A program made the translations under genes and the position numbers. Shown one piece after another: positions 10,825-39,801 of a stretch of DNA of 64,000 bases. The stretch is taken from positions 1 to 64,000 of the forward strand of contig JAUNTX010000008.1 in assembly GCA_030538475.1 (NCBI GenBank). The letters run 5' to 3'. The notes below the pieces were generated by a model that was not told the DNA's origin, made no database searches, and saw only the letters and a program-made list of their open reading frames with translations. Positions within the stretch are counted from its first letter, which is position 1. Each line of letters starts with the position of its first letter. This DNA comes from Dermabacter sp. (lineage in GTDB: Bacteria > Actinomycetota > Actinomycetes > Actinomycetales > Dermabacteraceae).

Positions 10825-11522
10825 CGGTACTGGCGGTGATTCCGGCGCGGGGTGGGTCGAAGGGGATTCCTCGCAAGAACCTGCTGCCGATTGGCGGGCG
10901 GCCGCTGATCGCGTGGACGATCGCGCAGGCGCTCGAGGCGGGCGATGATGTGCACGTGGCGGTGTCCACGGAGGATGAGGAGATTGCGGAGGTGGCCCGG
11001 CGGTACGGGGCGCACGTGATCGAGCGTCCGGCGGAGCTCGCGGAAGATACGACGCCGACGGAGCCGGTGATCGTGCACGCGATGGACGTGGCGGAGGCGG
11101 CGGGCATGGAGCTCGAGGCGGTCATGCTGCTGCAGGCGACGAGCCCGGTGCGCAGGCCGGAGACGATTCGGCGGGCGATTGAGAAGTTTCGGGCCGACGG
11201 GGCGGATTCACTCGTGGCGGTGGTGCCGGAGTCGCCGTTCTTTTGGCGCCCGCCAGCCACGCCGGGGGAGAGCGCGAGCGCGCACTACGACTGGTCGAGG
11301 CGTCCGCGGCGCCAGGAACTCACGCCAGATCAGATGTTTTATTTCGAGAACGGCAGTCTGTACGTGACGAAGCCGGAGCTGTACCGCGAGACGATGAATC
11401 GTCTGGGCGGCAAGATTTCTTTGTTCATGCTGGAAGAAGTGGAAGGGGTGGACATCGATACCGTGGCAGACGTTGCTGCTGCCGAGCAGATGCTCGCCCG
11501 GATTGGATGGACCCTCTCATGA
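10821..11522 (+). CDS. neuA: Acylneuraminate (nonulosonate) cytidylyltransferase
   Basis: The 233-residue protein activates a nine-carbon keto sugar acid with CTP to give CMP-sugar. It has the family length and the N-terminal nucleotide-binding motif IPARGGSKGIPRKNL, then VAVSTEDEEIAEVA, VMLLQATSPVRRPETI and FYFENGSLYV. It overlaps the upstream gene by ATGA and the downstream neuB fusion by ATGA, so all three are translated together. Sequence alone does not show whether the substrate is Neu5Ac, legionaminate, pseudaminate or another nonulosonate. Confidence 0.9.
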   Translation: MTVLAVIPARGGSKGIPRKNLLPIGGRPLIAWTIAQALEAGDDVHVAVSTEDEEIAEVARRYGAHVIERPAELAEDTTPTEPVIVHAMDVAEAAGMELEAVMLLQATSPVRRPETIRRAIEKFRADGADSLVAVVPESPFFWRPPATPGESASAHYDWSRRPRRQELTPDQMFYFENGSLYVTKPELYRETMNRLGGKISLFMLEEVEGVDIDTVADVAAAEQMLARIGWTLS

Positions 11523-13768
11523 TTATTGACCGCACCACCTCCCCGTACACGGTGAGCAGCGAGGCAAGCATTCTCGAGGCGCTGCGCAAGATTAGCGACA
11601 ATCAGGCTCGGATCGTGTTCGTGGTGGACGCGCACGGCGTGGTGCACGGCACCTTGACCGACGGCGATGTGCGCCGCTACCTGGTGCGCGAAGCATCGCC
11701 GGATCTGGGGTTGCCGGCGCTCGACGTGGCGAACACGGGGTTCTTGTCGGTCCTGGAGGGGACGCCGGGCCCGGAGGTGGAGCGGTTGTTCCGCCCGGGC
11801 GTGGATCGTTTGCCGGTGCTGGATGAGCGCGGCCGCATTGTCGCGGTGGCGTCGCCGAGTGCGGAGGTGATGACGATTGGTCGGCATTCGATTGGTCGGG
11901 GTTTGCCGTCGCTCATCATTGGCGAGATCGGTAATAATCACCAGGGTGATGTGGAGCTGGCGAAGCATCTCGTGGATCACTGCGTGAACGCGGGTGTGAA
12001 CACGGTGAAGTTCCAACTGCGCGATATGGCGAGCCTGTATAGGTCGGGCGGGTCGAGTTCGGCAGGCGAGGATTTGGGCCCGCAATACACGATGAATCTG
12101 CTCGCGAAGTATTCGCTGAGTGTCGAGGACATGTACCGCGTGTTCGATTATTGCGGCGAGAAGGACGTGGATGTCATCTGCACGCCGTGGGACCTGGTGA
12201 GTGCGGACGCGCTGCACGCCTACGGGATGGTGGGGTACAAGATCGCGTCGGCTGACCTGACGAACGATGAACTGCTCGCGCACGTGGCGAATTTCCACGA
12301 CCCGATGGTGGTGTCCACGGGCATGTCGAGCGAGACGGAGATCCGGGGCGCGGTGAAAATCCTCAAGGATCACGGCGCGCCGTACGCGCTGCTGCAGACC
12401 CAATCCACGTACCCGGCGCCGTTCAAGGACGTGAACCTGGCCTACATGGATCGGCTGGCTGAACTGGGAGAATGCCTCGTCGGCTATTCGGGCCATGAGC
12501 GCGGCTGGCACGTGCCGATCGCGGCGGTGGCGCGCGGGGCCTCGATTATCGAGAAGCACGTGACGGTGGATAAGTCGCTCGAGGGCAACGATCACAAGGT
12601 GTCGCTGTTGCCGGACGAGCTCGCGCACATGGTGCGCCAGATCCGCGAGGTCGAGGAGTCGATTGGTTCGGCTCGCCCGCGCGAGCTGTCCACGGGCGAG
12701 CTCATGAATCGCGTGAACCTCGCGAAGTCGCTCGTGGCGGCGCGGGACCTCACGGTCGGCGATGTCATCACGCCCGCGGATATTGATGTGAAGTCGCCGG
12801 GTCGCGGCCTGCAGCCGAACCAGCGCGAGGCCCTGCTCGGCGTGACCCTGCACCGCGATGTTCCCGCGGGCGACTTCTTCTACCCGGGTGACCTCGCCGA
12901 ACAGGCGCAGCAGCATCACGCGTACAGCTTCCGTCGGCCCTGGGGCCTGCCGGTGCGGTTCCACGACTTCCGGCCCCTGCTCGAGGTGTCCGAGCCGGAT
13001 TTCCTGGAGTTCCACCAGAGCTACAAGGATATGGAGCTGGATCCGGCGAGTTTCTTCACGCCGGGCGAGAAGCTGCCGCAGTTCTTCACGGTGCACGCCC
13101 CCGACCTGTATGCGGGCGACTTCCTCATTGACCTGGCGAGCCCGGACGATGAGATCTGGGAGCGGTCGATCCGCGAGGTGCAGAAGGTTGTGGATATGAC
13201 GCGCGACATGCGCCGATTCTTCACGTGCGCCGAGGACCCGATCGTGATCGTGACGATGGGCGGGTTCCTGCCGGACGCCCACGTGCGGCCCGAGGAGCGC
13301 ATCCCGATGTACGAGCGGGTGCAGCGAGGCCTCGAGCGGATCGACGAGGAGGGGGTGCGCCTGACCGCGCAGACCCTGCCGCCGTTCCCGTGGCTCATGG
13401 GCGGTCAGCAGTTCCACAACCTCTTTATGGACCCCGAGGATTCGGTGTGGTTCTGCGAGAAGTACGGGCGTCGGCTCACGTTTGACGTCTCGCATTCGAA
13501 GCTCGCGGCGAACTTTGCGGGCCGCCCGTTCAGCGAATACATCGACCTCATGGGCCCCTACAGCGAGCACCTGCACGTCGTGGATTCGGTGGGCGTTGAT
13601 GGCGAGGGCGTCCAGGTGGGCGAGGGCGAGGTGGATTGGGCGGACTTCGGTCAGCGGATCGACCGCGTGGCGCCGAACGCCCCGTTCATTCCGGAGATTT
13701 GGATGGGCCACGTGAACAATGGCGAGGGCTTCTTCACCGCCCTGGACCGCCTCGAAAAGTGGATGTGA
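11519..13768 (+). CDS. neuB: CBS - NeuB synthase - TIM-barrel isomerase fusion
   Basis: Start ATG 11519 overlaps the neuA stop and gives 749 residues, about twice the length of a normal NeuB. A CBS-domain pair occupies about residues 8-118 (VFVVDAHGVVHGTLTDGDVRRYL; LPVLDERGRIVAV). The NeuB barrel covers about 130-385 (IIGEIGNNHQGD, TVKFQ, QSTYPAPF, VGYSGHE, IEKHVTVDKSLEGNDH). An SAF/antifreeze-like domain follows at about 397-460. The last 275 residues form a xylose-isomerase-like TIM barrel (FHDFRPLL, TVHAPDLYAGDF, LTFDVSHSKLAAN). NeuB condenses phosphoenolpyruvate with a six-carbon amino sugar. The C-terminal barrel may supply an isomerase/epimerase step, and the CBS pair may sense nucleotides. 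Confidence 0.88.
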   Translation: MIIDRTTSPYTVSSEASILEALRKISDNQARIVFVVDAHGVVHGTLTDGDVRRYLVREASPDLGLPALDVANTGFLSVLEGTPGPEVERLFRPGVDRLPVLDERGRIVAVASPSAEVMTIGRHSIGRGLPSLIIGEIGNNHQGDVELAKHLVDHCVNAGVNTVKFQLRDMASLYRSGGSSSAGEDLGPQYTMNLLAKYSLSVEDMYRVFDYCGEKDVDVICTPWDLVSADALHAYGMVGYKIASADLTNDELLAHVANFHDPMVVSTGMSSETEIRGAVKILKDHGAPYALLQTQSTYPAPFKDVNLAYMDRLAELGECLVGYSGHERGWHVPIAAVARGASIIEKHVTVDKSLEGNDHKVSLLPDELAHMVRQIREVEESIGSARPRELSTGELMNRVNLAKSLVAARDLTVGDVITPADIDVKSPGRGLQPNQREALLGVTLHRDVPAGDFFYPGDLAEQAQQHHAYSFRRPWGLPVRFHDFRPLLEVSEPDFLEFHQSYKDMELDPASFFTPGEKLPQFFTVHAPDLYAGDFLIDLASPDDEIWERSIREVQKVVDMTRDMRRFFTCAEDPIVIVTMGGFLPDAHVRPEERIPMYERVQRGLERIDEEGVRLTAQTLPPFPWLMGGQQFHNLFMDPEDSVWFCEKYGRRLTFDVSHSKLAANFAGRPFSEYIDLMGPYSEHLHVVDSVGVDGEGVQVGEGEVDWADFGQRIDRVAPNAPFIPEIWMGHVNNGEGFFTALDRLEKWM

Positions 13769-19357: not shown

Positions 19358-19549
19358 GCCGCTGAAGGCGCCGCGGGGTGTGGGCTGCCTTCCACATCGG
19401 CCGTGCGCGTTGAGCGCGCCCCGCGGGCCTTGTAGTCTTGGCTGTAGATATACCGAGTGGTAAGCCGCGTCACATATGCGGCAGATCTTGTGGAACCCCC
19501 TCGGCCGGTTGCCCCGCGCGGGCGCGTGACATCCGAGAAGAGGGCGAGC

Positions 19550-20983
19550 ATGGTGCAGCAGGGCAGGAGGCCCAAGGGCCTGTATCGGCCCGTCCAGTTT
19601 GGTGCCGACCTCGTCTCCCTCGTGGCCGCGCTGCTGCTCGCCTACGTGATCCGCACGCAGCTTCCCACGTTCTCGGACGCGCACGATCTGTCCTCGAACC
19701 TCGCGAGCGGCCTGTGGGTCCTCGTGTTCGGCTGGGTCGTCGCCATTGCCTTTCACGGCGGCTACAACCCGCGCCTGCTCTCAACCGGCAGCCAGCTGTA
19801 TTCGGCGATCACGCACGCGACCATTTACGCGGCCGGTTTCACGGGTGTCATCCTCTACCTCACCGGCATCCCGCTGTCGCGCGTGTTCTTCGCCGTCTTC
19901 TTCGTGCTCGGCCCCTTTTTCCTCCTTCTGAACCGCCTGATCCTGCGCCGCGTGCTCAACGGGCTGCGCTCCCGCGGGAAATGGCTCATGCCGACGATCC
20001 TCGTGGGCTCGCTCCCGCAGGTCGACGCGATTGGGCGAACGCTCAAGCGCGAGGGGTGGCTCGGCTATTCGATCATCGGCGCGATTTCCCCCGAGGGCGA
20101 TCCCCGTCGGCATTCGCGGCTCGGCATCGAGGTGCTCGGCAGCGACGGCGACCTCATCGACATCGTGCGCGAGCGCCGCCCCGCGATCCTCATCTTCACC
20201 GCCGGATCGTCCTTCCAGGGCGCCGAAATGCGGCGCCTCGCGTGGGAACTCGGCGACTTCAACGTGGACATGATCGTTGTGCCCGCCATCTCGGAAATCG
20301 CGTCGGACCGCGTGATGATGCGCCCCGTGGCGGGCCTGCCGCTCGTGCACCTCGACCCCCCGCGGGCCCGCGAGGCGCTCCGGTGGTCCAAGCGTGCCTT
20401 CGACATCGTGGCGAGCGCCGTGGGACTCGTCGTCACCTCACCGCTCCTGCTGGTCACGGCGGCCGTGGTGAAGCTGGCCGACGGTGGCCCCGTGTTCTTT
20501 GTGCACAAACGCGTGGGCCAGGGCGGCAAGCACTTCGACTTCTACAAGTTCCGGTCCATGGTGCCGAATGCCGAGGAGATCCGCGCCGCGGAGCTCGAGG
20601 GGGCCGAACGCGACAAGGGCAACGCGGTCATGTTCAAGATGGCCGACGACCCCCGCATCACGAAGCCCGGGCGCATCCTTCGCCGGTACTCGATCGACGA
20701 ACTGCCGCAGCTGTGGAATGTGCTCAAGGGCGACATGTCGCTCATCGGGCCGCGCCCCGCCCTGCCCTCCGAGGTGCGCGCGTATGACGCCGACGCGCTG
20801 CACCGACTGTCGGTGCGCCCGGGGATCACGGGCCTGTGGCAAGTCAGCGGCCGCAGCGACCTCTCGTGGGACGAAACGGTGCGCCTGGACCTGTATTACG
20901 TGGACAACTGGTCGTTCACGCAGGACATTTCGATCCTCACGCGCACCGTGCGCGCGGTTCTCGCCTCCGACGGGGCGTACTAG
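19550..20983 (+). CDS. Polyprenyl-phosphate sugar-1-phosphate transferase (WbaP/CpsE type)
   Basis: I chose ATG 19550 because AGAGGG lies 5 bases upstream, giving 477 residues; GTG 19457 is in frame but has no such site. The N-terminal half has about four membrane helices (residues 18-135) and a CoA-binding-like cytoplasmic segment. After another helix (about 288-310) comes the catalytic domain with FDFYKFRSM, RRYSIDELPQLWNVL, GDMSLIGPRPALP and GITGLWQVSGRSDL. The enzyme puts the first sugar phosphate onto undecaprenyl phosphate and so commits the pathway. An AT-rich TAGATATACC at 19445-19454 may be part of a promoter, but the -35 is unclear. Confidence 0.92.
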   Translation: MVQQGRRPKGLYRPVQFGADLVSLVAALLLAYVIRTQLPTFSDAHDLSSNLASGLWVLVFGWVVAIAFHGGYNPRLLSTGSQLYSAITHATIYAAGFTGVILYLTGIPLSRVFFAVFFVLGPFFLLLNRLILRRVLNGLRSRGKWLMPTILVGSLPQVDAIGRTLKREGWLGYSIIGAISPEGDPRRHSRLGIEVLGSDGDLIDIVRERRPAILIFTAGSSFQGAEMRRLAWELGDFNVDMIVVPAISEIASDRVMMRPVAGLPLVHLDPPRAREALRWSKRAFDIVASAVGLVVTSPLLLVTAAVVKLADGGPVFFVHKRVGQGGKHFDFYKFRSMVPNAEEIRAAELEGAERDKGNAVMFKMADDPRITKPGRILRRYSIDELPQLWNVLKGDMSLIGPRPALPSEVRAYDADALHRLSVRPGITGLWQVSGRSDLSWDETVRLDLYYVDNWSFTQDISILTRTVRAVLASDGAY

Positions 20984-20987
20984 CGCG

Positions 20988-21617
20988 ATGGGCACGGGAG
21001 CAAGCACCAGGACCGGTAGTGAGGCCGCGGGCGGTGACGCCACTGAAACTCACGCCACCAGCACTAACGCCAGGGTCGGGACCAGGGCGGGCCTGCCCGC
21101 GTGGCTCGGGGCCCTCGCCAGCCTGATCGCGGTCGCGTACCCGGTGGGCATGGCGTGGCTGCTCACCACCGCGGACGGCTGGCGCATCAACCGACTCAAC
21201 GTTGACGTGTGGCTCGCCGTCCTCTCCCCGTTTGATCTGCATCGGGTCGTGAGCCCCGAACAGTTCGCGGTCGCCATGAACGTGGCTCTCTTCGTGCCGC
21301 TCGCGTGGGCGCTCGCGGTGCTCGTGCCGCGCTGGTGGTGGCTCGCCGCCCTCGTCGGCCTCTCCTGCGCGGTCGAGTCCTATCAGTGGGTGATCGGCTC
21401 CCGCCAGGCCTCGCTCGGGGACATCGCGAGCAACGCCACGGGGGCCGCGCTCGGGGTGTGGCTCGGAATCCTTACCGCGCGGAGGTATCGCCGCCGCGCG
21501 GGCGCACCAGTCGGCGAAGACGCCTGGTCCCCCGCCCCAGGCGGTGCACCCACTCGCGGGCAATCTCCGCGCGCGTCGGCGCATGCCCCAGCTGGATCGC
21601 GAGGTGATCGCGATTAA
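20988..21617 (+). CDS. VanZ-like membrane protein
   Basis: The 209-residue protein starts at ATG 20988, five bases after the transferase stop. It has a Thr/Gly-rich N-terminus of about 35 residues, then four hydrophobic segments. The VanZ signature is present: NVALFVPLAWALAVLV, SCAVESYQW and SLGDIASNATGAALGVWLG. VanZ-like proteins are common near cell-envelope genes, but their chemistry is not settled. Its last 146 bp lie antisense to the end of the nucleotidyltransferase gene. Confidence 0.8.
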   Translation: MGTGASTRTGSEAAGGDATETHATSTNARVGTRAGLPAWLGALASLIAVAYPVGMAWLLTTADGWRINRLNVDVWLAVLSPFDLHRVVSPEQFAVAMNVALFVPLAWALAVLVPRWWWLAALVGLSCAVESYQWVIGSRQASLGDIASNATGAALGVWLGILTARRYRRRAGAPVGEDAWSPAPGGAPTRGQSPRASAHAPAGSRGDRD

Positions 21618-22368
21618 CGTGCGCCGCCTTCCACATGATGCCTATCTTCTGCGTCCACGAATGCGCGTCCTGAATCTGCGCATTCCACAGCTCCGTGGGG
21701 TTCGCCCCGCGGCTGATCGCATCCCACAGGTGAAACGTCGGCTCGCCTCGCACGCGGTCGATCCGCTCGCCGTCGCCCGTGTCGGTGAGGATCATGAGCG
21801 GGGTGATCGCGCCAAGAGCGACGGCGCGGGCCTCGAGTGCGCGGCGCTCGTCGGCGCTCGCGTCCTCCCAGGTCACGCGGAAATCGTGCGAGGTGAGCGC
21901 GTTCGGGGAGCGCGCGGCGTGCATGAGCAGCAACACGCGCTGGTCCAGGGCCGACGGCACCCGGAGGCGAGCCCCACCGAGCTCGATCTCCCGGCCGTCC
22001 TGCCACCAGGCCTCGAAGGTCGCGTCGGCGTCGGTATCGAGGCCCGGGAACGACCGGTGCACGTCCACCGTGCCCCACACGGGGTGGTACATCGTGGCGG
22101 CGTGGCCGAACACGCTGCCGTGCTCGAACCGGGTGCGCAGATCCCAGCCGTGGGTGGCGAGGGCGTCGCAATAGCGTTCAGCGTCTGTCGGGGGCACGAG
22201 TACGTCGCAGTCGGTCGAGGCGTGCCGGTTCTTGGCCAGGTCCGCATCGAGGGTCACGCCCTTGATGTGGAGGACCCTGATACCGGCCTCGCGGCCCAGG
22301 GTCTCCAGCAGGGCGTGCGTGATGCGCAGCCGGGTGGCCATGGGTGGCGCCGTGGGAGTGGTGGGCAT
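21472..22368 (-). CDS. Nucleotidyltransferase-fold protein (PF14907-like)
   Basis: From ATG 22368 the protein has 298 residues; ATG 22341 and 22395 are also possible. The marks of the family are LHIKGVTLDADLAKNR followed by STDCDVLVPPTD, which supplies the two acidic residues of the fold, then YHPVWGTVDVHRSFPG and VPSALDQRVLLLMHAAR. Members occur with HPr-kinase-like and PqqD-like genes in some peptide-modification clusters such as paeninodin-type lasso peptide loci, and the same pair follows here. Substrate is unknown. The gene diverges from manA and shares an AT-rich promoter region with it. Confidence 0.75.
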   Translation of the reverse strand: MPTTPTAPPMATRLRITHALLETLGREAGIRVLHIKGVTLDADLAKNRHASTDCDVLVPPTDAERYCDALATHGWDLRTRFEHGSVFGHAATMYHPVWGTVDVHRSFPGLDTDADATFEAWWQDGREIELGGARLRVPSALDQRVLLLMHAARSPNALTSHDFRVTWEDASADERRALEARAVALGAITPLMILTDTGDGERIDRVRGEPTFHLWDAISRGANPTELWNAQIQDAHSWTQKIGIMWKAAHVNRDHLAIQLGHAPTRAEIAREWVHRLGRGTRRLRRLVRPRGGDTSAR

Positions 22369-22370
22369 GC

Positions 22371-22381
22371 CATTTATAGTA
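22371..22381. promoter_or_regulatory. Shared promoter region of the divergent manA/NTase pair
   Basis: The AT-rich string CATTTATAGTA stands out in GC-rich DNA. Read on plus it offers a -10 of TATAGT for manA, followed by an AAGGAGA ribosome binding site. Read on minus it offers CTATAAAT just before the ATG at 22368, which would make the nucleotidyltransferase mRNA nearly leaderless. The -35 elements are unclear. Confidence 0.45.
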
Positions 22382-22406
22382 GTGAGGGCGAACAAGGAGA
22401 ATCCAC

Positions 22407-23612
22407 ATGCTGCGCCTAGAGGGCTTTCTTCAGCGATACGCGTGGGGCTCCACGGAGGCCCTTCCGCAGTTCCTGGGGCGTGCGGCCGACGGGGACACGT
22501 GGGCAGAGGTGTGGTTCGGTGCGCATCCGCTCGCGCCGTCGATGGTGCTGGGGTCGGAGCGGGCGCTGGATCGGGTGATCGCCGAGGAGCCGCGGCGGAT
22601 GCTGGGCGATGCCGTGATCCGCACGTTCGGCAGTGAGCTTCCGTTCCTCCTCAAGGTCATCGCCCCCGCGCAGCCGCTCTCGTTGCAGGTGCATCCCACG
22701 CGCGAGCACGCCCGCGAGTCGTTCGCGGCGGAGAATGCTGCGGGGCTCGCGCTCGATTCGCCGAACCGCAACTACCGCGATGCGAACCACAAGCCGGAGA
22801 TGGTGCTGGCGCTCGCCCCGTTCGAGGCCCTATGCGGTTTCCGCACTCCCCGCAAGGCCGCGGCGATCCTCGAGGGGCTCGAGTGCCCGCTGGCCGAACG
22901 GATGCGGCTCCTCGTGCGCGAGCAGCCGACGGCCCACGGCATTCGCGCGGCGTTTCGGATGCTGATTTCGCCCGCGATGCGGCCGAAGCCGGATGAGATC
23001 CTCGACCTCGCGCGCGCGTGCCAGGAGCGCCTTGAGGCCGGGGTGTCGCCCTCGCCGAGGATTGATCGGGCCGTGGTGGCGCTCAGCGAGCAATACCCGG
23101 GCGATCCTGGGGTCGCGGTGGCGCTCCTGCTCAACCCGGTGAGCCTCCAGCCGGGGGAGGCGATGTTTGTTCCCGCCGGCACGATTCATTCGTACCAGAG
23201 CGGCCTGGCCGTCGAGATTATGGCGTCGAGCGATAACGTGCTGCGCGCGGGCCTCACCCCGAAGAAGGTCGATGCCGACGAGCTGTTGCAGTGCGTGAGC
23301 GTGACCGCGGCGCCGCCGATCAGGATCGCCCCGGAGCGCCTCGCGCCCCACACTGTGGCCTATTTTTCCCCGATCGATGACTTCGAGCTCACGGTGACCA
23401 CGCTCGATGATGATCGCGGCTCGTTCCTTCCGGCGCACACGGTGCCCGGGGGCGGGCCGCGCATCCTGCTGTGCCTCGAGGGTGATGTCATCGCGGAGTC
23501 GAGCACGGGGCGCCACCGCGTGCGCTCCGGCGAGGCCCTGTTCATTCCGGCCGCCTCGGGCGAGGTTCGGCTCGGCGGCGTCGGCACCCTCGTGCAAGCG
23601 AGCGTTCCGTGA
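22407..23612 (+). CDS. manA: Mannose-6-phosphate isomerase, class I
   Basis: The 401-residue protein interconverts fructose-6-phosphate and mannose-6-phosphate and so feeds GDP-mannose and GDP-fucose for the glycan. The zinc-site pieces are present in order: LQVHPTREHA, then HKPEM, then PAGTIHSYQSGLAVEIMASSDNVLRAGLTPK. The start has an AAGGAGA site 5-6 bases upstream. The next gene begins with GTG overlapping the stop, so manA leads a three-gene operon with two PqqD/HPrK-type genes. That is an unusual association for a central sugar enzyme. Confidence 0.95.
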   Translation: MLRLEGFLQRYAWGSTEALPQFLGRAADGDTWAEVWFGAHPLAPSMVLGSERALDRVIAEEPRRMLGDAVIRTFGSELPFLLKVIAPAQPLSLQVHPTREHARESFAAENAAGLALDSPNRNYRDANHKPEMVLALAPFEALCGFRTPRKAAAILEGLECPLAERMRLLVREQPTAHGIRAAFRMLISPAMRPKPDEILDLARACQERLEAGVSPSPRIDRAVVALSEQYPGDPGVAVALLLNPVSLQPGEAMFVPAGTIHSYQSGLAVEIMASSDNVLRAGLTPKKVDADELLQCVSVTAAPPIRIAPERLAPHTVAYFSPIDDFELTVTTLDDDRGSFLPAHTVPGGGPRILLCLEGDVIAESSTGRHRVRSGEALFIPAASGEVRLGGVGTLVQASVP

Positions 23613-23899
23613 GCGGCCGGACGCTCTACCGGGCGCGCGCCTTCGGCGTGGATCCCGTGGGGGACAGCGTGTGGGTGGGGCTGTTTCCCGACGGCCCGAT
23701 GGTAATGATGAACGGGGTGTCGTTCGCCCTGCTCGACGTCGTGGAGGCGGCCGGGCGACCGCTCACGGTCGAGGAGGTCATGGAGGCGCTGCGAGAAACG
23801 GTGGACGACGTGCCCGATAACGCCGAGCCGGTGGTGCACGCCGCCCTCGAAGACTTCGTGCAGCGCGGCTTCATGGTCCACGTGCGGGACGGCGCATGA
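23609..23899 (+). CDS. PqqD-like (RiPP recognition element-like) protein
   Basis: This 96-residue protein consists of a single PqqD-type winged-helix domain: GPMVMMNGVSFALLDVVEAAGRPLTVEEV in the first half and VVHAALEDFVQRGFMV at the end. PqqD domains usually hold a leader peptide for a modifying enzyme, but free copies also occur beside glycan genes. It overlaps manA upstream and the HPr-kinase-like gene downstream, both by 4 bp. No radical SAM or cyclase partner is present in the window. Confidence 0.7.
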   Translation: MSGRTLYRARAFGVDPVGDSVWVGLFPDGPMVMMNGVSFALLDVVEAAGRPLTVEEVMEALRETVDDVPDNAEPVVHAALEDFVQRGFMVHVRDGA

Positions 23900-25131
23900 G
23901 CGCGCCCCGCGTTCGCCTTGCTACCGCTGGCCTCACGATTGACCTCGTGTTCCACGGGGCCACCGGGCGCTTCCCTGACCTGGTGCGCCTGCTGTGGGCC
24001 CCCGCGCTCACGGAGGCGGGCGGGGAGCCCACGTTCGTCGTCAACGCGGTGATTCCGAGCGGTGACGGGGATGCCGCGCACAGCATTGATCGGCCCGTGC
24101 AGCTCAACCGCGTGGGCGGCGATGCCACCTACCGGCTCTCGGGGGAGGTGACGATGCGGATCCTCGAACATCTCGTGGGATCCAGAATCCTCCTGCACGC
24201 GGGCGCCGTGATCCTCGAGGATCTCGGCACCGTCATCACCACGGGTGCCTCGGGCGCGGGAAAGTCCACGGCCGTGACCACTCTCGCCCGCGGCGGCACC
24301 TACCTCACCGACGAACTGACGATCCTCGACCCCATCGACTTCTCCATCACCGCCTACCCGAAGCCGATCTCGCGCGTGTATTCGGAACCGGGTGAGCCCG
24401 CGCGCCACAAGCGCGACTACGCCCTTGAGGACCTGGGCATCACGTCCGTGTGCGCGGGGACGGCCCCCGCCCCCTCCCACGTGGTCCTCGTCAACCGCCA
24501 GGTCGACGCCGCCGAGGCGGTCGTCGAGCCACTGTCGCTCTTGGAAGCCGTGGCCATTCTCGCGGGCCAATCCTCGTCGCAGTGGAAACTGCCCAGCCCG
24601 CTCGGCTCCCTCGCCCGCCTCATCACCTCGCTCGACGGCGTGTGGCGGGCCACGTACACGGAAGCAAGCGAGCTGCCCGGCGCGCTGCGCGCCGCGGTCA
24701 AGGCCCGGGCCGACGGGGAGGGCGCGGCTCAGGCGTCGGCGGCCGACGCCACGTACGAGGTGCTTGCCCCCGGCGATGCCGCGCCCGGTGCCGTCGCCGA
24801 GGAGCCTCCTACCGTGGAAGGGGCGGACACCGCGGCGGCGGGTCCTGCGCCGTCGGCTATTCCCGCCGAGCGCGTGTGGCGACTCGCCCCCTTCTACGAG
24901 GCCCTGTGGAGCGAGGGGGAGTTCGCGGTGCTCACCGCGTGCACGGAACCGCAGGTGGTGCGCCTGACCGGGGTGAGCACCACCGTGTGGGACCTCCTGT
25001 TCAGCAGCGGGCCACTGACCACGTCGGCGATTGTCGAGAGCGTCGTGGCACTAATGGGCGAGCATCCCGATGCCGACGAGCGGGTGTGCGCCGCCCTCGC
25101 CTCATGTGCTGAGCACGGGGTGCTGGTTTAG
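23896..25131 (+). CDS. HPr-kinase-like P-loop protein fused to a PqqD-like domain
   Basis: The 411-residue protein has an HPr-kinase/SerK-like core: LLHAGAVILEDLG, Walker A TTGASGAGKSTAVTTLA (about residues 114-130) and TYLTDELTIL. A 55-residue Ala/Glu/Pro-rich linker (about 268-325) joins it to a C-terminal PqqD-like domain with VVRLTGVSTTVWDLLFSSGPLTT and CAALASCAEHGVLV. HPrK homologues in paeninodin-type lasso clusters phosphorylate the peptide; here no precursor is recognised. Its own PqqD domain plus the free one just upstream suggests that it binds a peptide or another small partner. Target and reaction are unknown. Confidence 0.7.
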   Translation: MSAPRVRLATAGLTIDLVFHGATGRFPDLVRLLWAPALTEAGGEPTFVVNAVIPSGDGDAAHSIDRPVQLNRVGGDATYRLSGEVTMRILEHLVGSRILLHAGAVILEDLGTVITTGASGAGKSTAVTTLARGGTYLTDELTILDPIDFSITAYPKPISRVYSEPGEPARHKRDYALEDLGITSVCAGTAPAPSHVVLVNRQVDAAEAVVEPLSLLEAVAILAGQSSSQWKLPSPLGSLARLITSLDGVWRATYTEASELPGALRAAVKARADGEGAAQASAADATYEVLAPGDAAPGAVAEEPPTVEGADTAAAGPAPSAIPAERVWRLAPFYEALWSEGEFAVLTACTEPQVVRLTGVSTTVWDLLFSSGPLTTSAIVESVVALMGEHPDADERVCAALASCAEHGVLV

Positions 25132-25414
25132 TCGCGGTGCTGCGGCTCCTGGCGACGGACGGGCTCGGGCAGAACAAAGCCCCGCGGTGCCTAACTGACC
25201 GGAGCCAGACAGAGGACGGTTGCCGCGGGGCGATGTTCCTAGAGTAGTTGGTTCGACCGATGGAGTTACTTACCTCGACGTTCGACGCCGCACTCTCCTG
25301 GTTCCCAGTGCCGGGGCTGACCACCGTGACAGTCCCGACATGCTCCTGGTCTTTCGTGTACCAGGGGACGCGGCAGGTGAGGTGTGAGCCGTCGCGGGGT
25401 GCCGGAGGTAGGCA
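25132..25414. other. Intergenic stretch with possible small ORFs
   Basis: This gap lies between the convergent HPrK-like and MauE-thioredoxin genes. GC is high at positions divisible by three with remainder 2, a coding-like pattern, but it does not say which strand is used. Candidates are a 52-residue plus-strand frame at 25260-25418 (MELLTSTFDAAL, with two cysteines and no ribosome binding site) and a 49-residue minus-strand frame from an ATG joined to the MauE stop (TAATG, 25413 down to 25264, with CRDC). Neither is recognisable. The minus-strand terminator lies at 25171-25231. Confidence 0.3.
25171..25231 (-). terminator. Terminator of the MauE-thioredoxin/phosphatase transcript
   Basis: GCCCCGCGG (25179-25187) pairs perfectly with CCGCGGGGC (25223-25231). 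On the minus strand the stem is followed by TTTGTTCT. The loop is long (35 nt). It also lies after the plus-strand HPrK gene and could work both ways. Confidence 0.5.
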
Positions 25415-26599
25415 TTAGTTGGTGCTTGACTCCGCGTCAGTGCTTGCCGCGTCGGGATCGGCCTGCTCGGGCAGGGGCGCGTCGGCCAGCTGTTCGAGAA
25501 TGTCGCCCACGAAGCGTTCCACGGCGCGGCCGCCCGCGACGGGACCCCCGGCCATGAGCCCGTCGGCCCCGAGTAGAACCGCGGCGGGCCGCCCGTAAAT
25601 GTCGAACTGCATTGAGGTGGAGGTGTCCACTTCCTCCATCTGCGTGCCCTCGACCTGACGGGCCGTCTCTTCCGGGAGCTGGGACAGGTCGAGGGAGAAC
25701 ACGGTGATGAGCCGCACGTGGGGCTCGAACTGCGCCTTCCAGTCCTGCACCTTCGGCATGAGGTCGAGGCAGGCCCCGCAGCCGGGGCTGAAGAACAGCA
25801 GCAGCACCGCCTGGTGGGAGGCAAGTTCGCGCAGCGTGTGGGGAGTACCGTCCGGAGCCTTGAGCGCCGAGAAGGGGATGGGGGCGCGCAGATAGTCGTC
25901 GTCTTCGTCCTCCTGGGTGTCGGCGCTCTGGTCGGCGCTGACCGCTGCACCCTCCGCGGCCGCTTCCGGAGCCTGAGCCGCGGGAGCCGCGGACGCTGCA
26001 GCGGCGGGGGCGGCCGCACGCACGGGGGCACGCCCGGACCGGGCGGGCATGGCGTCGGCTTCCCCGGCGAAGCGGTCGGTGCCGCCGAGGATGAGCAGCA
26101 CGATGGCGGGGGAGAGCACGAGCAGCAGCACGAGGGTTAGGACGGCCAGCGGGTTCGTGAGCAGCTCCTGGCCGGGGTAGATGCCCGGGCCGAGGATGGT
26201 GAGCAGGAAGGCGACGAGGGCGACCGCGCTGAGCACGAGGTTGCGCACGAGCGTGCTCGGGCCCACCGTGGGGGAGCCGAGCGTGCCGAAGCACGCGCAG
26301 TGCACCGCATCCTCGAACCGCAGGGCGCGCGCGATGATGACCGTGAACGCGAGCATCATCGCGAGGCCCACGAGCGCGGCGGAAGCGGCCACGCCGCGGA
26401 TCGGCACCCACACGCCGATAGCGACATACAGTTCCGCGAGCGGCGCCGCGATGGCGAGGATGCCGTGCAGCTGAGGGAATGGGATCTGCAGGGAACGCAG
26501 CCCGCTGCGCGTTCCCCGAGGATCGGCCAGTTTGCCCGCGGCGCTCACTGCGAACGTGAGGCTGAGGAGGATCGCGAAACCGGAGGCGACGGTGGTCAT
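25415..26599 (-). CDS. MauE/DoxX membrane domain fused to thioredoxin-like domain
   Basis: ATG 26599 overlaps the phosphatase stop and gives 394 residues. The N-terminal 170 residues form a four-helix MauE-type unit with the redox motif HCACFG (about residues 86-91). A 60-residue Ala/Glu/Asp linker follows. The C-terminal TlpA/thioredoxin-like domain has FFSPGCGACLDLMPKV, so its active site is CGAC. MauE/MauD pairs pass electrons or form disulfides for envelope proteins, and fusion gives both halves in one chain. The substrate is unknown. It ends next to the HPrK/PqqD gene in convergent orientation. Confidence 0.82.
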   Translation of the reverse strand: MTTVASGFAILLSLTFAVSAAGKLADPRGTRSGLRSLQIPFPQLHGILAIAAPLAELYVAIGVWVPIRGVAASAALVGLAMMLAFTVIIARALRFEDAVHCACFGTLGSPTVGPSTLVRNLVLSAVALVAFLLTILGPGIYPGQELLTNPLAVLTLVLLLVLSPAIVLLILGGTDRFAGEADAMPARSGRAPVRAAAPAAAASAAPAAQAPEAAAEGAAVSADQSADTQEDEDDDYLRAPIPFSALKAPDGTPHTLRELASHQAVLLLFFSPGCGACLDLMPKVQDWKAQFEPHVRLITVFSLDLSQLPEETARQVEGTQMEEVDTSTSMQFDIYGRPAAVLLGADGLMAGGPVAGGRAVERFVGDILEQLADAPLPEQADPDAASTDAESSTN

Positions 26600-27267
26600 G
26601 CGGAGTGCCTTTCGCTGAGGTAGAGGGCAATCGAGGAGTGCAGGGACGCGGCCAGGGCGCGGCAGTGAGTGTCCACGAGCGCGGCGGAGGCGGCGTACTG
26701 GTCGGGGGCCTTGCGGAAGGGATCGGGCACGTCGGCGATGTCGCCCGTGGCGCGGCGGGCCACGGCGTGAATCGTGTCGATGCTGACCGGGGCGGGCGCG
26801 GTGGCCAGGGGCCGTGAGGCGCGGCGCCCGTGCCGCGGATCGCTCGCGGCGGGCTGGGACTGGGCGCGGGCGGAGCCCTCGAGGGAGCCGACGGCGCCGA
26901 GCAGGAGGGTCTTCTTTCGCGAATGGGGCCATTCGTCCACGATGAACGCGCGCTGGCGCCGAGACATCGTGAGAATGAGATCGGCGCGCTCCACGTCGTC
27001 GGCGGTGATCTGGTGCGCGACGAAACCGTCGGGGCTCAGGCCCCGCGAGGCAAGCTCGGGTAGCATCCCAGCATCCACCCCCTCACCTTCCATGGCATAC
27101 ACACCTGCGCTGGATACCGTGATGCCCGTGCCCGCCAGCAGATCGGCCAGCAGCAAATGACCGAGCGGCGAGCGGCAAATATTGCCGGTACACACCACGA
27201 GGATGTGCCCGACACCCGTGGCCGCGGGGCCGGGAGCATCGGGCACGGAAGGATGGTGGGCGCACAT
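26596..27267 (-). CDS. Low-molecular-weight protein-tyrosine phosphatase
   Basis: The 223-residue protein has the P-loop VCTGNICRSP (CX5R-S) near residue 26 and the general-acid motif VPDPFRK near residue 180. Partners of BY-kinases in capsule loci (Wzb, CpsB-like) belong to this family, so it probably dephosphorylates the tyrosine tail of the kinase at 6213-7979. The chain is about 60 residues longer than typical. A Ser/Ala/Arg-rich insertion at about 127-160 separates the core from the DPF loop. It is translationally coupled to the MauE-thioredoxin gene. Confidence 0.9.
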   Translation of the reverse strand: MCAHHPSVPDAPGPAATGVGHILVVCTGNICRSPLGHLLLADLLAGTGITVSSAGVYAMEGEGVDAGMLPELASRGLSPDGFVAHQITADDVERADLILTMSRRQRAFIVDEWPHSRKKTLLLGAVGSLEGSARAQSQPAASDPRHGRRASRPLATAPAPVSIDTIHAVARRATGDIADVPDPFRKAPDQYAASAALVDTHCRALAASLHSSIALYLSERHSA

Positions 27268-34822: not shown

Positions 34823-36697
34823 GTGAACACGACCGGCCGTCACACCGACAGCACTGGCCACGAGGACGCGACGAGCGCGGCAAGCACCGCCAGCACCGCT
34901 CACAAGATCCGCGTGGTGCTCGAGCGCACGGTCAAGGTCAAGCTGCTCATCGGGGCCGTGATCTCCACGGCCCTCGCGCTCCTGGACAGCGCCGCCGTCG
35001 TGCTCGTGCTGCCGCTCGTGAACCTCGCCGCCGGGGCCGATCACACCACCGGGGCGATGGGAAGCCTGTGGAGAGCGCTCGGGGAGCCCGGGGTCAGCAC
35101 GTTCGGGATCGTCCTCGTCGCGCTCGTGGTGGGCCTGTTCATCGTCAAGGACGTCGTGTTCATTGCCTTCACCTGGTGGCAGAGTGGCGTCATCGCGAAC
35201 GAACGCGTCCGGATCTCCACGCAGATCTTCCGCAACGTCCTCCAGAGCGACTACGTGTCTTTCCGGAACCGGAAGATTAGCGACATCATGGCCATCATGA
35301 GCACCGCCGTGGGCCAGACGATGAACGCGGTGGTCGGCGGGATCACCCAGATCTTCACCGCGGGGATCACGATCCTCGCACTGCTGGCCGTCCTCGTGAT
35401 CGCGACCCCCATCCAGGCGCTCGTGGCCATCGTGTACTTTTCCGTCGCAGCCCTCATCTACATGCGGTTTGTCCGGGCCCGGCTCACGCGAGTGGGCGAG
35501 GGGATGCTGCGCGGATCGCTCGCGCTCACCTACGCCCAGCTCCAGGGCCTCAACGGCTTCAAGGAAGTGAAGCTGCGCCACACGTCCGAGGTCTTCGTTG
35601 AGAAGTACACCATCGGGGCCGACGAAGTGGAGCAGTCCTCGCGCCGCGGGAACTTCATCTCCGGGATCACCAAATACATCATGGAGATCCTCTTCATCCT
35701 CGGCATGGGGGTGCTGCTCACGATCAGCTTCCTCACCGGTGGAGGCGCGGGCGCCGTGGGCGCCCTCGCCATCTTCGTCGCCGCGGGATTCCGCATGCTG
35801 CCCAATATTTCCGCCCTCGTCGGCGCGTTCAACAGCGTGCGGGTCGGAAGGAAGTCCCTCGACGTGGTGTACGCCGAACTCAACGGCTCGGTCCACGTGG
35901 ACCCCGAGACCCCGCCCGCGAACACCATCGAGTTCTCTCGCGAACTGGAACTTCGGGACGTCCGCTACGCCTACCCGTCGGCCCAGGGTGAGGTCATCAA
36001 GGGCGTCAACCTCACCATTCCCTTCGGCAGCTCCGTGGCTTTCGTGGGCAGTTCCGGCGCCGGCAAAACCACGATGGTGGACATCATCCTGGGTCTCACC
36101 ACGCCGACGCACGGGACCATCCACGCGGACGGCGTGGATGTCTCCCGCGATATTCGGGCCTGGCAGCGCAACTGCGCGATGGTGGCCCAGGACGTCTTCC
36201 TCGTGGGCGGGGCCCTCCAGGGAGACATCGTGTTCGATGAGCTGCCCGAGCACGTGAACGACGAACGACTCCAGCGTGCCGTCCGCGACGCGCAGCTCGA
36301 GGATGTAGTCGCGGGGCTCGACGGTGGTCTTGAGGGCGACATCGGCGAGTTCGGCTCCAAACTCTCCGGCGGGCAGAAGCAGCGCGTCGGCATCGCCCGA
36401 GCTCTCTACCGTGCGCCGCGCCTCCTGGTCCTCGACGAAGCCACGTCGGCCCTCGATAACGAGACCGAACGCAAGGTGACCGACACGATCAACGCCTTGC
36501 GCGGCCAGGTCACTGTCGTCATCGTGGCGCACCGACTGTCCACCGTGAAGAACGCCGATACGATCGTGTTCATGAAAGATGGCGTGATCGCTGGCGCGGG
36601 GCCCTTCGCCGAGCTGCGGGCCTCCAACCCCGACTTCGCGCGGCTCGTCGAACTGGGCGACCTCTCCGACGCGCCCTCGGTCACGGCTGCCCCCTAA
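34823..36697 (+). CDS. ABC exporter, PglK/MsbA type
   Basis: The 624-residue half-transporter starts with GTG 34823 behind GAGGAG. Six membrane helices occupy about residues 40-345, and the nucleotide-binding domain follows with Walker A VGSSGAGKTTMVDIILGL (about 407-424), Q-loop CAMVAQDVFLVGG, signature LSGGQKQRVGIARAL and Walker B LLVLDEATSALD. The ordering and spacing resemble PglK-type flippases that move lipid-linked oligosaccharides. With fucosyl- and GT2 enzymes next to it, glycan export is the favoured reading, but a drug or lipid exporter is possible. Its end overlaps the convergent GT11 gene by 4 bp. Confidence 0.88.
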   Translation: MNTTGRHTDSTGHEDATSAASTASTAHKIRVVLERTVKVKLLIGAVISTALALLDSAAVVLVLPLVNLAAGADHTTGAMGSLWRALGEPGVSTFGIVLVALVVGLFIVKDVVFIAFTWWQSGVIANERVRISTQIFRNVLQSDYVSFRNRKISDIMAIMSTAVGQTMNAVVGGITQIFTAGITILALLAVLVIATPIQALVAIVYFSVAALIYMRFVRARLTRVGEGMLRGSLALTYAQLQGLNGFKEVKLRHTSEVFVEKYTIGADEVEQSSRRGNFISGITKYIMEILFILGMGVLLTISFLTGGGAGAVGALAIFVAAGFRMLPNISALVGAFNSVRVGRKSLDVVYAELNGSVHVDPETPPANTIEFSRELELRDVRYAYPSAQGEVIKGVNLTIPFGSSVAFVGSSGAGKTTMVDIILGLTTPTHGTIHADGVDVSRDIRAWQRNCAMVAQDVFLVGGALQGDIVFDELPEHVNDERLQRAVRDAQLEDVVAGLDGGLEGDIGEFGSKLSGGQKQRVGIARALYRAPRLLVLDEATSALDNETERKVTDTINALRGQVTVVIVAHRLSTVKNADTIVFMKDGVIAGAGPFAELRASNPDFARLVELGDLSDAPSVTAAP

Positions 36698-39699: not shown

Positions 39700-39772
<73 letters not shown>

Positions 39773-39801
39773 CTCGAGAAACCTTGAGACAGTGACTCGT
39801 T

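Follow-up and report, generated by a model that had tools for sequence, protein, structure and literature searches.

A capsule-locus kinase with peptide-docking domains in Dermabacter and its probable role in the tagging of dedicated exported proteins

The gene module and its surroundings

The window, a stretch of 64,000 nucleotides of Dermabacter DNA analysed at its full length, belongs to contig C10 in a high-GC genome of 2.53 Mb. It holds a capsule or exopolysaccharide (EPS) locus whose upstream genes encode a Wzz/ParA-type protein, NeuB, several glycosyltransferases, and an undecaprenyl-phosphate sugar transferase (Bac_transf). One ORF of this part (11243-13768) combines a NeuB-family synthase with CBS, SAF, and xylose-isomerase-like domains, and judging from this ORF the capsule may contain a nonulosonic acid. 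The genes of interest are the following:

19457-20983, plus strand: undecaprenyl-phosphate sugar phosphotransferase of the capsule locus, 5′ neighbour of the module (PF02397, 2e-70; TIGR03025, 9e-126); kept in the conserved block
21043-21617, plus strand: VanZ-like membrane protein, start approximate (PF04892, 7e-12, in ORF 20484-21617); about half of the loci have a homologue in this position
21472-22395, minus strand: PF14907 nucleotidyltransferase-like protein (NTase; PF14907, 2e-15)
22407-23612, plus strand: manA (TIGR00218, 2.5e-73), the sole copy in the genome
23609-23899, plus strand: free, PqqD-like RiPP recognition element (RRE) of 96 aa (PF05402, 6e-5); most host-family loci have a homologue in this place, flanked by manA and HprK
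23896-25131, plus strand: HprK-like kinase of 411 aa with a C-terminally fused RRE
24871-25128, plus strand: C-terminal RRE domain of the kinase, residues about 326-411, a wHTH domain (pLDDT about 72-93 per block; 5v1v_A, TMt 0.63)
25415-26599, minus strand: MauE membrane domain joined to a thioredoxin (MauE-Trx; PF07291, 3e-21)
26596-27267, minus strand: low-molecular-weight (LMW) protein tyrosine phosphatase (PF01451, 5e-19); kept in the conserved block

Overlaps of 4 bp each connect manA with the PqqD gene and the latter with the kinase gene. The PF14907 gene, for which ATG codons at 22368 or 22341 are alternative starts, is divergent from manA, and the MauE-Trx gene, sharing 4 bp with the LMW phosphatase gene, converges on the kinase. 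Coordinates, overlaps, and Pfam/NCBIfam matches thus confirm the gene content given in a preliminary description of this DNA. The module genes overlap or abut and contain no small conserved ORF among them. Neither a lasso cyclase nor a B2 protease or a radical SAM gene was found among the window genes scanned, and the absence of the first two led us to reject a lasso cluster. An archaeal or SipW-type signal peptidase is likewise missing from the module, the best TIGR02228 matches of a genome search being located on contig C12 and far below the cut-off. An ABC exporter is encoded about 10 kb away (34823-36697); the conserved block has no such gene. The LMW phosphatase is probably an EPS regulator of the BY-kinase type. 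Farther downstream, GC content falls straight after a tRNA-Ala gene (39700-39773), and the following genes encode a zeta-toxin-like kinase, a ParA-like ATPase, an M23 peptidase, and a TraG/VirD4 coupling protein; the region 39700-64000 looks like an integrated conjugative element.

By sequence, both the kinase and the RREs are remote homologues of characterized proteins. The assignment to HprK is weak at this level (TIGR04352, 3.6e-7, far under the curated cut-off), a sequence search of the PDB with the kinase returned P-loop matches only, and the Pfam match of the free PqqD protein is borderline (23.7 bits against a cut-off of 23.4). In an AlphaFold2 model of the kinase (m38946aac17a1), which also drew on three relatives from named genomes, mean pLDDT is 71, with values mostly of 80-93 for the core and the C-terminal domain. 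The model is similar to PEPCK and HprK/P structures of the PDB, and the C-terminal domain to TbiB1, a lasso RRE whose structure was determined together with its leader peptide (5v1v, TM 0.63). These similarities confirm the HPrK-PqqD fusion named in the preliminary description; on this model the kinase carries a peptide-docking domain of its own, to which the operon adds a second, free one. The catalytic apparatus expected of an HprK-like peptide serine kinase is intact in the P-loop HprK/PEPCK fold: Walker A reads GASGAGKST, and H101, K123, D139, E140, and R201 are invariant among the kinase relatives of host-family loci. In the NTase, D62xD64 and D111 are invariant; its structure model was of low confidence (pLDDT 47) and unusable.

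A kinase relative is present in 20 of the 47 genomes of the host family. Comparison of 19 host-family neighbourhoods of 20 kb each revealed, in most of them and apart from local rearrangements and a few exceptions, the order sugar transferase, VanZ, NTase (minus strand), manA, PqqD, HprK/RRE, MauE-Trx, phosphatase, and aldehyde dehydrogenase. In two loci of another genus, MauE-Trx is found between manA and the kinase in the same direction. The LMW phosphatase gene (26596-27267) also belongs to the conserved block. Since this order recurs although the kinases are merely 26-40% identical across the family, the grouping is more than chance. The suspicion that the genes might rarely co-occur was not borne out in the 19 host-family loci or in 396 genomes of the order, and the idea of a functional group in a capsule locus, akin to RRE/HprK/NTase peptide tailoring and without cyclase or radical SAM enzyme, stands. 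Two of the genes counted as core members had to be removed from that core. One is manA, a conserved neighbour in the host family only, with no match in loci L041-L083. The other is MauE-Trx, which inside the host family also occurs in kinase-negative genomes and is therefore accessory; outside the family, 32 of 34 genomes with MauE-Trx also have the kinase. A plasmid origin was rejected as well, as the plasmids searched contained no kinase relative.

Exported proteins with a shared Tat-like signal

Because the module leaves no room for a small conserved ORF, the search for substrates was extended to kinase neighbourhoods across the order: kinase relatives were gathered and 40 further neighbourhoods read. 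Many of these loci hold one to seven exported proteins whose sole common part is the N-terminus, a Tat-like signal of the form RR-x7-W-x2-P-x-[IVLA]...P-AxA-x-S, followed by about 110-540 residues. Such a protein is encoded in 26 of 62 kinase loci (about 20 kb each, 1.2 Mb in all), with up to seven in tandem; signals near the kinase are mostly on the kinase strand, and each genome holds only a few. The W-x-x-P-x-[IVLA] element within the signal corresponds to the recognition motif of lasso-type RREs, [Y/W]xxPx[L/V/I/F/A] (PMC13381572; see also PMC12710340).

At W+17, which is residue +2 behind the AxA site, a serine is found in 79 of 85 proteins (Ser/Thr 94%) selected with a profile (A2) that was seeded from kinase-adjacent proteins and includes the serine column. 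When selection used the RR and WxxPx[ILVAMF] alone, serine was present in 67 of 74. Ser/Thr make up 0-27% at each of the other positions from W+12 to W+23. This serine, although located past the signal, is more constant than any other residue of the region. Profile A2 has some background, since one match in genome G007 has, by eye, the look of a normal cholesterol-oxidase-type Tat enzyme.

Within the window, strict and loose motif scans identified no substrate. Six proteins matching the profile are encoded elsewhere in this genome: five on contig C7, of which three are in a row at 29-34 kb, and the sixth on C6. Each of them has Ser at W+17, preceded by AxA (W+13 to W+15) and by Pro at W+12 and W+3. 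With the twin-arginine motif, hydrophobic stretch, and AxA cleavage site in these proteins and TatC in the genome, export through Tat is predicted. The preliminary description had expected an invariant small ORF within the cluster as partner of the kinase. The proposed partners are instead full-length exported proteins, mostly encoded elsewhere in the genome and presumably recognized through their Tat-like signal. As to its alternative of a peptide or a lipid-linked glycan as substrate, a polypeptide is the most likely one; the lipid-linked glycan as direct substrate is unsupported, and a glycan could be the group that is attached to the polypeptide.

The mature parts tested matched no Pfam or NCBIfam family. 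Two candidate substrates from sister genomes carry a choice-of-anchor G domain (NF033766; E 2e-41 and 1e-36) without an LPXTG motif, a weak hint at attachment to the surface through an anchor situated elsewhere. Near the kinase, L028 (about 11535), L032 (12810-14384), L033 (6798-8387), and L039 (7850) encode large signal-bearing proteins of about 450-540 aa; those of L032 and L033, the two scanned, have choice-of-anchor G domains. In L064, L065, L066, and L068, tandem arrays of four to seven signal proteins directly follow the kinase. Their mature parts are divergent and nearly free of cysteine, and the respective genomes lack MauE-Trx. Overall, candidate substrates contain two or more cysteines in 31 of 39 cases with MauE-Trx versus 4 of 38 without it. 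The CxC and CxxC pairs of MauE-Trx are invariant, and we propose that it serves as disulfide machinery for the signal-bearing exported proteins and perhaps for others.

Co-occurrence of kinase, nucleotidyltransferase, and signal

In the host family, the signal (profile A2) is found in all 20 kinase-bearing genomes and in 4 of the 27 others; the three sister genomes of the window's genus have neither kinase nor signal. Among the 396 genomes of the order, 80 contain kinase and signal, 5 the kinase only, 7 the signal only, and 304 neither (Fisher 1e-68, a value that overstates independence as the genomes are related). Only a few candidates per genome were scored in these searches, and the counts depend on cut-offs (kinase 1e-25, signal 1e-6, NTase 1e-20) that were set once the gap in the scores was apparent. 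The link between kinase and signal also holds within five genera (CMH p 9e-19, from genus tables compiled by hand), and the association therefore does not merely reflect shared ancestry. A PF14907 relative was detected in 80 of the 396 genomes, in 79 together with the kinase, whereas 310 contain neither. All three components occur in 79 genomes and none in 304. Six HprK-positive genomes lack the NTase, among them the five with kinase and no signal (G147, G160, G199, G223, and G274), whose kinase relatives probably serve another function.

Signals without a kinase were found in G011, G013, G020, and G143, as well as in the incomplete G033 and the borderline G325; in G011, G013, and G020 the signal proteins are accompanied by neither kinase nor NTase. 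In the signal-only genome G034, the kinase is reduced to two short fragments (G034:C8:1015560-1017109) beside an intact MauE-Trx gene, an apparent recent loss of the system. In G342, also signal-only, a weak degenerate kinase match contains in-frame stops. The remnants in both genomes are as expected after recent loss. Outside the 396-genome sample, two Nocardioides genomes and a Kocuria genome, taken from a kinase scan of genome contigs (at least three loci), carry 3-4 signals each, all with the serine, as predicted.

Proposed tagging pathway and relation to known systems

As the module almost always occurs in genomes with signal-bearing surface proteins, it probably tags these proteins, and we consider it likely that it represents an RRE-guided protein-tagging system for dedicated exported proteins. 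The computed gene group, kinase and RRE fold, signal motif, fixed serine spacing, and three-way co-occurrence of kinase, NTase, and signal can be combined with phosphorylation and nucleotidylation, both transferred from Bacillota relatives, into the following pathway. First, while the exported protein is still cytoplasmic, both RREs, namely the free one as a proposed docking protein and the one at the kinase C-terminus, would bind W-x-x-P-x-[IVLA] in its Tat-like signal peptide. In a second step, the HprK-like kinase would phosphorylate the serine at W+17, mature residue +2 behind AxA. The PF14907 enzyme, proposed to be a second tailoring enzyme, would then extend the phosphoserine by a sugar or a nucleotidyl group in the manner of its relative PsmN, which adds hexoses to the phosphoserine of pseudomycoidin (PMC9266682). 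Finally, Tat would export the folded, tagged protein, the signal would be removed, and MauE-Trx would handle disulfides where cysteines exist. We infer the first two steps from the motif, the spacing, and the relatives, and the third from PsmN on pseudomycoidin together with the near-perfect co-occurrence.

The closest known system is that of the linear polyphosphorylated peptides (LPP) of Bacillota, encoded by lppA/K/B/S/D/N (PMC13381572, 2026). As in LPP loci, a discrete RRE, an HprK-like serine kinase, and an NTP transferase occur together here, embedded in a capsular polysaccharide locus, and a Y/WxxP recognition motif is shared. The LPP kinase uses Ser as acceptor and neither Thr nor Tyr, and the phosphorylated serine, at +3, lies 18 residues behind the motif tyrosine, Y(-16)..S(+3) (PMC13381572); the corresponding spacing is 17 in our proteins, where the serine presumed to be modified is also located just past the leader cleavage site. 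No activity of LppN was observed in the host reported for it (PMC13381572). Several differences exist between the two systems. The kinase of the present module has a second RRE attached to it, a SipW-type signal peptidase is missing, no dedicated exporter is seen in the conserved block, and the substrates would be complete exported proteins of Tat type, whose genes are often distant from the module and present in several copies. They show RR-x7-W-x2-P-x-[IVLA]...P-AxA-x-S with 113-541 residues behind the signal and do not match the LPP-type precursor (35-200 aa, YxxPxVLxHQxIxFETxxS). The host belongs to Actinomycetota, whereas LPP and paeninodins have been called restricted to Bacillota (PMC13381572). 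With paeninodin and pseudomycoidin lasso clusters (PadeK, PsmK, PsmN; PMC9266682) the module shares an HprK-like kinase, a B1-type RRE, and a PF14907-like NTase; it differs in having no cyclase and no B2 peptidase among the window genes scanned, and phosphorylation in the lasso peptides occurs at a C-terminal serine. By the features tested, the system would work like LPP and paeninodin tailoring and is a member of neither, because it has no SipW-type peptidase, no cyclase, a different leader, and whole exported proteins as putative substrates; it is probably an RRE-guided kinase/NTase tailoring system with a sorting or surface function.

Processing enzymes encoded in an EPS locus, acting on many genome-dispersed substrates with a short shared sorting signal, are also known from PEP-CTERM/exosortase systems. 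The likeness lies in this arrangement, in which the substrates share only the sorting signal, and in the choice-of-anchor G domain (NF033766) of two candidate substrates from other genomes; the signal described here is N-terminal and Tat-like, and the enzymes are kinase, NTase, and RRE rather than a transpeptidase. No paper on such a system in Actinobacteria was found in the literature searched.

LPP clusters contain the same three enzymes and also reside in capsule loci (PMC13381572), and one might therefore regard the module as a true RiPP cluster of the LPP or paeninodin kind, in which a small precursor at or close to the locus has escaped annotation and the signal proteins are just co-inherited. 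Given that the overlapping or abutting genes leave no conserved small ORF in the host family, and that the signal proteins bear the RRE motif, adjoin the kinase at 26 of 62 loci, and co-occur with it genome-wide, this is improbable. It is equally hard to believe that the enzymes act on the capsule itself, as a sugar or lipid kinase and an NTase making an activated sugar, with the signal proteins being ordinary capsule-binding Tat proteins: manA, sugar transferases, and phosphatase in a capsule locus would suit such a role, which leaves unexplained why there are two RRE domains, why the signal peptide contains WxxP, and why the serine is fixed at W+17; manA and the sugar transferase are also absent beside many kinase loci outside the host family. 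That the RRE and the HprK-like protein form a chaperone or targeting pair escorting signal peptides to Tat without covalent modification, as the peptide-chaperone nature of PqqD-like domains and the overlap of motif and Tat signal might suggest, is equally improbable in view of the invariant catalytic residues of kinase and NTase, the constancy of a serine beyond the signal, and the proven serine kinase activity of the relative LppK (PMC13381572).

RRE-guided tagging of exported proteins would, if true, extend this kind of tailoring from small RiPPs to whole proteins, the signal peptide doubling as leader. Capsule attachment is a possibility raised by the locus: it is conceivable, though rather doubtful, that the phosphoserine near the N-terminus serves, via the PF14907 enzyme, as attachment point for the capsule or its lipid-linked precursor, with a phosphodiester linking proteins exported by Tat to the capsule. 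If so, this link would constitute a new way of fixing proteins to the bacterial surface. The tagging hypothesis predicts the target residue (Ser+2) and a list of substrates across dozens of genomes, and it suggests a role, open to testing, for three families of capsule loci about which little is known, namely PF14907, HprK-like, and free PqqD proteins. It also bears on the question of why LPP and paeninodin genes sit in capsule loci.
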